Assembly: GCF_022844445.1 (NCBI RefSeq)
Contig: NZ_JALHLS010000001.1
Location: 62,001-126,000 of the forward strand
DNA from: Hyphomonas sp.
Lineage (GTDB): Bacteria > Pseudomonadota > Alphaproteobacteria > Caulobacterales > Hyphomonadaceae
Length of the DNA stretch: 64,000 bases
Direction: 5' to 3'
Both the position numbers and the translations under genes were made by a program. The notes under the pieces are model-generated. The model was not told the origin of the DNA, searched no databases, and was given only the letters and a program-made list of their open reading frames with translations. This document shows, piece after piece, positions 1,917 to 55,705 of this stretch (its first letter is position 1; every line of letters starts with the position of its first letter).

Positions 1917-1931
1917 GAACAAAACATGAAC
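1917..1931. promoter_or_regulatory. LexA-type box (GAAC-N7-GAAC) upstream of GST gene
   Basis: Plus strand GAACAAAACATGAAC, equal to GTTCATGTTTTGTTC on the other strand. This exactly matches the alphaproteobacterial LexA direct-repeat consensus GTTC-N7-GTTC, with a T-rich spacer as is typical. It ends 15 bases before the ATG at 1947 and just upstream of the AGGAGG-like ribosome site, a position suited to repression. Regulation is inferred from the motif only. Confidence 0.6.
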
Positions 1932-55255: not shown

Positions 55256-55603
55256 TCAGGCCGCGAGGCGGATCACCTGACCTGTGCGGACACCGGAGCT
55301 AACAATCGGCCGGAAGCCGGCTTCAAGGTCTGCCACGATCTGTTTGCGCACCGGGGCGTCGAACTCGAGGGCCACGAACACGGCGCTGGCACCATATCGC
55401 TCGGCCTCGGCCAGGGCCCAGATCGGCTGAATGTCGTGCGGCTTGCCGGAGAGTTCAATCACCCGGAAAACGCGCCACCCGCAAGCTTCGGGGATGGCAA
55501 AAATGGCCACACCGGGAGACCGTGCCCAAGGCGCATCCGCGGCCGCCCGCTGAAACGACCACGCCTTGCCCGATTGACCGCGAAAGCTGACTGCGCTACC
55601 CAT
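55256..55603 (-). CDS. Small protein of unknown function under LexA-type boxes
   Basis: 115 residues, no signal peptide. The N-terminal third is basic (FRGQSGKAWSFQRAAADAPWARS); AIFAIPEACGWRVFRVIELSGKPHDI has strand-helix character, and QPIWALAEAERYGASAVFVALEFDAPVRKQIVADLEAGFRP looks like a helix-strand-helix. I do not recognise a family. GGAGCAAGAAC precedes the ATG at 55603. Immediately upstream are five GTTC half-sites, three pairs spaced exactly as LexA boxes, so it is probably SOS-induced. It is not ImuA by sequence. It lies 9 bases from the convergent DUF885 gene. Confidence 0.8.
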   Translation of the reverse strand: MGSAVSFRGQSGKAWSFQRAAADAPWARSPGVAIFAIPEACGWRVFRVIELSGKPHDIQPIWALAEAERYGASAVFVALEFDAPVRKQIVADLEAGFRPIVSSGVRTGQVIRLAA

Positions 55604-55654
55604 GTTCTTGCTCCGTTCCTTGTAGAATGTTCCTACTCTGTTCCAGTTTGGTTC
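55604..55654. promoter_or_regulatory. Cluster of LexA-type boxes (five GTTC half-sites)
   Basis: GTTC begins at 55604, 55615, 55629, 55640 and 55651. Spacing of 11, 14, 11 and 11 bases gives three GTTC-N7-GTTC units, two of them sharing the middle half-site. The first unit touches the start codon of the small gene. LexA of alphaproteobacteria binds this direct repeat; the multiplicity suggests tight repression. Confidence 0.7.
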
Positions 55655-55679
55655 GCAAGAAGTTTTTGATAAACAATGG

Positions 55680-55705
55680 GTTAACGGAACCCTGAATCCG
55701 TTAAC
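55680..55705. repeat. Inverted repeat at the DUF2794 stop
   Basis: Arms GTTAACGGA (55680-55688) and TCCGTTAAC (55697-55705) with 8-base loop; the TAA stop of the DUF2794 gene lies in the right arm. It may be a terminator without a U-run or an operator. Confidence 0.4.

Follow-up and report, generated by a model that had tools for sequence, protein, structure and literature searches.

A conserved LexA-type operator array precedes a diverged GIY-YIG gene that has lost its active site in Hyphomonas and related bacteria

What kind of protein is encoded by a small bacterial gene that begins directly against five GTTC half-sites, and which regulator would act through them? The locus lies in a stretch of 64,000 nucleotides from Hyphomonas sp. 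(Alphaproteobacteria, Caulobacterales, Hyphomonadaceae; contig NZ_JALHLS010000001.1, positions 62,001 to 126,000), hereafter the window, whose own numbering is used throughout. The gene encodes 115 residues and occupies positions 55256..55603 on the minus strand. A preliminary description, made from the sequence alone, had read the half-sites as LexA-type boxes and the gene as a candidate SOS-induced effector of no nameable family. Upon comparison with its relatives, the previously unrecognised gene now reads as a putatively SOS-controlled derivative of the GIY-YIG superfamily in which the active site has been lost; the SOS reading holds at the level of sequence.

On the plus strand, GTTC starts at positions 55604, 55615, 55629, 55640 and 55651; on the minus strand, in the direction of the gene, the same half-sites appear as GAAC repeats at steps of 11, 11, 14 and 11 bases. 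Three exact GTTC-N7-GTTC boxes are present on the plus strand, at 55604-55618, 55629-55643 and 55640-55654, and the last half-site touches the ATG of the open reading frame ending at 55256, giving GAACATG on the minus strand. The five positions, the three exact pairs and the abutment of the array on the start codon were all confirmed as first described. The open reading frame is 115 residues long when counted from the array-adjacent ATG, and the frame remains open further upstream. The two overlapping boxes at 55629..55654 are referred to as the upstream operator, and the pair at 55604..55618, which lies over the ribosome-binding site (RBS) and start codon, as the proximal operator.

The window contains six exact GTTC-N7-GTTC boxes, whereas dinucleotide shuffles averaged 1.65 and never exceeded 5; the whole genome contains 100, and the reversed pattern occurs 70 times. 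In the list of 100 exact boxes, places outside the array lie at least 490 bases from the next, making the array the only cluster of exact boxes in the genome and bearing out the earlier remark that it is unusual. According to a 2025 study, about 97% of SOS promoters in Caulobacter have a single LexA box (PMC12700426); an array of five half-sites is therefore out of the ordinary, the present gene having two operators with up to five half-sites kept across the family.

A homologue of the 115-residue protein is present in 92 of 105 Hyphomonadaceae genomes, one per genome, with two assemblies listing a second, partial match. An order-wide sample of 299 genomes yielded 85 matches: 54 in this family, 29 weakly similar ones in a second family, a strong one in a third family and a marginal one. 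The marginal match (G270, locus L245; expectation value (E) 9.7e-4) looks unrelated on reading and was rejected. The genus loci include named Hyphomonas species together with metagenome-assembled genomes under other labels, and the second family, hereafter the sister family, is tied by name to Vitreimonas, Terricaulis and 'Hyphomonadaceae bacterium'. Ninety loci were loaded, from 33 of the 41 genus genomes that gave a match, 37 of the 51 in other genera of the family and 20 of the 29 in the sister family; one (L159) was dropped because it held too little DNA, leaving 89 homologues whose upstream DNA was examined (33 genus, 36 other genera, 20 sister family).

In the 130 bases preceding the start codon, one or more exact GAAC-N7-GAAC pairs were present in 33/33 genus, 36/36 other-genus and 17/20 sister-family copies, or 86 of 89, so that the non-conservation which would have spoken against the preliminary description was not found. 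In shuffled upstream DNA, one exact pair occurred in 0.6-0.7% of cases and two pairs in none. Two or more exact pairs were present in 32 of 33 genus copies, 0 of 36 other-genus copies and 16 of 20 sister-family copies; outside the genus, members of the first family have an exact proximal pair, and the counterpart of the upstream operator takes the form GAAC-N7-GAAT (34/36). Where neighbouring genes were scanned they vary between genomes (DUF2794, TonB receptor, FUR, NadA, GH88) while the array stays, and the array therefore belongs to the 115-residue gene; the idea that it is a property of a neighbouring gene was rejected on the same ground. Moreover, the operator pairs persist while protein identity falls to about 25%, for which reason control seems central to the function of the protein. 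Three sister-family loci that match the same profile (L119, L122 and L123) are array-less and form a second group of short proteins, different in sequence and probably a paralogue outside SOS control; they were retained in the sister-family counts. In two of the three copies from one genus (L148 and L149), additional GAACAAAA elements lengthen the array further upstream.

Conservation of the individual half-sites was scored on 32 distinct rows from the 33 genus loci, with identical alignment columns required. Counting from the half-site most upstream of the gene, GTTC is exact in 24/32 rows at half-site 1 (55651..55654), 31/32 at half-site 2 (55640..55643), 29/32 at half-site 3 (55629..55632), and 32/32 both at half-site 4 (55615..55618), beside the RBS, and at half-site 5 (55604..55607), which touches the ATG. 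The mean majority base was 0.96 in the half-sites as against 0.70 in the spacers, with 0.91 for the RBS-proximal spacer alone.

In its boxes and in their position before the start codon, the array resembles the LexA (SOS) regulon of Alphaproteobacteria, for which GTTC-N7-GTTC is the box of the lexA promoter itself. The genome encodes one LexA, recognised by its DNA-binding domain, and its own lexA promoter (L009) has GAAC-N7-GAAC. The same box was seen by eye in 31/31 lexA promoters of the genus, where the rows shown add a third GAAC six bases on, and lexA was found in 25 of 26 genomes of other groups, with an exact promoter box at 21 of the 25 loci. The other four lexA promoters (L247, L267, L268 and L269), all from one genus, read GAAC-N7-GAAT, a possible drift of the LexA motif. 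This variant matches the array variant in the same four genomes; the match gives only partial support, because variant arrays are also present in genomes with an exact lexA box. Within the Hyphomonas genome, 25 box neighbourhoods were opened, and in five of them the box lies ahead of a gene linked to repair (ssb, rmuC, SRAP, MmcB-like and photolyase). The 25 were not a random sample, 20 having been picked mostly for AT-rich spacers; the remainder include some near genes with no known repair role, for example those for a glutathione S-transferase and a glutathione-dependent formaldehyde-activating (GFA) enzyme. In the recA promoters read (two of nine loci tried), GTTC and GAAC elements occur without GAAC-N7-GAAC, and recA therefore lends no support to the LexA reading and was left unused. 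The inner box of the upstream operator (55627-55643 with its flank) fits the consensus (T/A)TGTTC-N6-TGTTC given for Caulobacter LexA (PMC13384398). Because the array is conserved, the lexA promoters share its box and repair genes carry it, LexA is the likely repressor, and the LexA-type control first proposed is well supported on these three grounds; LexA very probably binds the array.

Two of the boxes mentioned above have an identical spacer, GAACAAAACATGAAC; they stand just before the glutathione S-transferase gene and before the GFA gene (boxes and genes at window positions 1917-1931 and 1947-2570, and at G000:C1:266703, locus L164). Glutathione chemistry may thus come under LexA in this genome.

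The two operators were not alike in their fit to LexA. A spacer matrix was derived from six sites, namely the five repair-gene boxes and the lexA box; among the 100 boxes of the genome, the pairs of the upstream operator ranked 13 and 18, and the proximal pair ranked 55. This poor match of the proximal pair to the genome's LexA spacer weighs against assigning the whole array to LexA, and it would fit an alternative in which LexA acts at the upstream boxes only, while the two half-sites beside the RBS and ATG are conserved translation-initiation sequence or serve control at the level of RNA. In line with this alternative, the proximal spacer holds the GGAG of the RBS (55611..55614, minus strand) and is conserved nearly to the level of the half-sites, and the last exact pair touches the start codon in 33/33 genus and 21/36 other-genus copies. 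However, the sister family keeps a second GAAC-N7-GAAC pair, and at 17 loci there the last exact pair ends 13-50 bases short of the start codon, which favours the proximal pair as a LexA operator; both proximal half-sites are, in addition, exact in every genus row. We therefore consider restriction of LexA to the upstream boxes rather unlikely. The upstream operator is assigned to LexA with high confidence and the proximal operator with less, as predictions from sequence comparison.

A candidate promoter was picked out by eye within the upstream operator, on the minus strand: a possible -35 element, TTGCGA (55653..55658), overlaps half-site 1 and is separated by a 17-base spacer from a possible -10 element, TAGGAA (55630..55635), which overlaps half-site 3. 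The placement of a promoter here is plausible. Further upstream is an element resembling the CtrA site of a stalked budding bacterium, which we take to be Hyphomonas neptunium. The CtrA of that bacterium binds TTAA-N7-TTAAC by chromatin immunoprecipitation sequencing (PMC7200025). Elements of this kind have a fixed place in the genus and lie near that place in other genera; with at most one mismatch, they occur in 32/33 genus, 24/36 other-genus and 0/20 sister-family copies, as compared with 3.0%, 2.5% and 0.9% of shuffles, respectively, and TTAA-N7-TTAAC is exact in nine genus and five other-genus copies. The single genus exception is the window's own copy, TTAA-N7-TTTAT with two mismatches (55669..55684, minus strand). 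The presence of the box suggests that cell-cycle state may also gate expression in Hyphomonadaceae. An inverted repeat, GTTAACGGA ... TCCGTTAAC (window 55680-55705), touches the CtrA-like box and lies over the end of the DUF2794 gene, of which it is possibly the terminator.

In order to place the protein itself, sequence, profile and structure comparisons were carried out. Neither Pfam nor NCBIfam contained a match to the window protein, and the sole hit in the sister clade was one protein with a sub-threshold match to NCBIfam Cho (E 0.015, scoring 14.5 bits where the cut-off is 367). The PDB, searched by sequence, yielded nothing for the sister clade, and the joint alignment drew two matches at chance level (E 0.25 and 0.28); with Foldseek alone, no match fell below E 0.3. 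Two predicted structures were obtained, and the top structural rows of both were GIY-YIG domains. When profiles were compared with 14 UvrC domains and one other GIY-YIG domain, the sister clade reached a probability of 25, the joint alignment 1.8 and the Hyphomonas clade 0.1, so that the direct link between the window clade and UvrC is not significant. A chain of profiles was therefore run through relatives with an intact YIG motif, found from one class-level match: the sister clade matched the intact-YIG proteins with a probability of 99.4 (E 2.4e-21) and itself matched the Hyphomonas clade with a probability of 97.4 (E 1.1e-11), and one of six intact relatives scored above the GIY_YIG_2 cut-off (22.8 against 22.4 bits). 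The matches through intermediates and the two predicted structures place the 115-residue protein, much diverged, within the GIY-YIG superfamily, which includes Pfam GIY-YIG and GIY_YIG_2, the N-terminal domain of UvrC, T4 EndoII and R.Eco29kI; the gene does have a family that can be named, where none had been before. One GIY-YIG gene encountered elsewhere (L226, G525:C54) has an internal stop between the two motifs and is broken or misassembled. No report of the gene appeared among the titles and abstract openings listed from open-licence papers on LexA in combination with GIY-YIG, Hyphomonas or Alphaproteobacteria, by which its absence from print is not shown.

The catalytic residues of an active GIY-YIG nuclease are the tyrosines of GIY and YIG, followed by R, H, E and N. 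In the sister clade, of the Vitreimonas/Terricaulis type, the GIY tyrosine, R, H, E and N are kept in 22/22 rows and phenylalanine replaces the YIG tyrosine; members of this clade may cut, because those five residues are retained. In contrast, none of the 58 rows of the Hyphomonas-type clade keeps either tyrosine, R, H or E, and a single row keeps N; the GIY tyrosine is replaced by A or V, the YIG tyrosine by R, K, Q or G, R by D, E or N, H by I, and E mostly by V, I or A. The ratio of nonsynonymous to synonymous substitution rates (dN/dS) was 0.05-0.13 in nine pairs, three of which had dS >1, indicating purifying selection. The active site is gone and selection is still purifying; the GIY-YIG frame therefore persists without its chemistry. 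With a GIY-YIG fold but no catalytic residues, the protein most likely works by binding rather than cutting, and a non-cutting role in DNA damage is possible, though we put it forward tentatively. Cho, the SOS-induced UvrC homologue of E. coli, likewise has a GIY-YIG domain and is the family weakly matched by the sister-clade protein; the window-clade protein differs from Cho and UvrC in being a single short domain of 115 residues, with no match over the cut-off and no active site.

The protein of the window ends in LAA. Ala-Ala is the C-terminus of 78/85 and 120/120 proteins in two lists, the latter being the best 120 of 290 matches. RecN of E. coli is an SOS protein removed by ClpXP, and the present protein resembles such SOS proteins in its SOS-type promoter and C-terminal AA, a comparison of features and not of homology. 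In Caulobacter, CtrA is stabilised when its C-terminal alanines are changed (PMC4433202), and ClpXP recognises non-polar C-terminal residues (PMC8973945). Because the tail is conserved, the protein is a probable ClpXP substrate, and we lean towards proteolysis of the ClpXP type.

Small SOS proteins, such as SidA and SulA, often inhibit division, and the protein could be a division inhibitor or toxin for which the GIY-YIG fold serves only as a scaffold; tight repression and a proteolysis-type tail would suit a protein that is harmful when present. Descent from DNA-acting enzymes and retention of the gene in 92 of 105 family genomes argue against this, and no antitoxin family was seen among the few neighbours scanned, no systematic partner search having been made. 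We regard such a role as unlikely; among the effector types named in the preliminary description, membership of the GIY-YIG superfamily makes a repair helper more likely than a division inhibitor or toxin, though it is no proof. Continued nuclease activity through a rearranged active site appears quite unlikely for a clade whose 58 rows retain so little of the catalytic set, even though a different set of residues is invariant there and the sister clade may cut. Least probable is control by another factor, such as a response regulator of the OmpR/PhoB type, with the 11-base direct repeats as its operators. Three units at 11-base steps would suit such a regulator, and the poor LexA match of the proximal pair could also speak for it, but GAAC-N7-GAAC recurs in lexA promoters across the group and before the five repair genes, and the inner box agrees with the consensus for LexA in Caulobacter.

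Starting from the observed array and its conservation, the homology, the loss of the active site and the tail, we favour as probable the reading of the gene as a member of the SOS regulon that encodes a LexA-repressed, probably short-lived, non-cutting DNA-damage helper. In undamaged cells, LexA would occupy two operators, one of two overlapping boxes over the core promoter and a second covering the RBS and start codon. Upon damage, RecA would trigger cleavage of LexA, the promoter would fire and the single-domain protein would be made; it might then bind damaged or branched DNA, or a repair protein, without cutting, and act in repair or tolerance. Removal by ClpXP would clear the protein once damage had been repaired, and in Hyphomonadaceae the CtrA-like box upstream would add cell-cycle gating. 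Comparative evidence bears on the first step, repression by LexA, and we infer the later ones. More speculatively, an unnamed SOS protein of Caulobacterales may have been converted stepwise from a GIY-YIG cutter to a non-cutting, LexA-repressed and quickly degraded factor, CtrA-gated in Hyphomonadaceae, with the sister clade representing a half-way state.

SOS regulons outside E. coli hold many genes of unknown role, and the 115-residue gene, found in 92 of 105 genomes of its family, is one of these. Across its clades the gene forms a series leading from nuclease to non-nuclease while its control stays constant, and at this locus DNA damage may be linked to the CtrA cell cycle of budding bacteria. 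Since Hyphomonas species are culturable, these predictions are open to direct testing.
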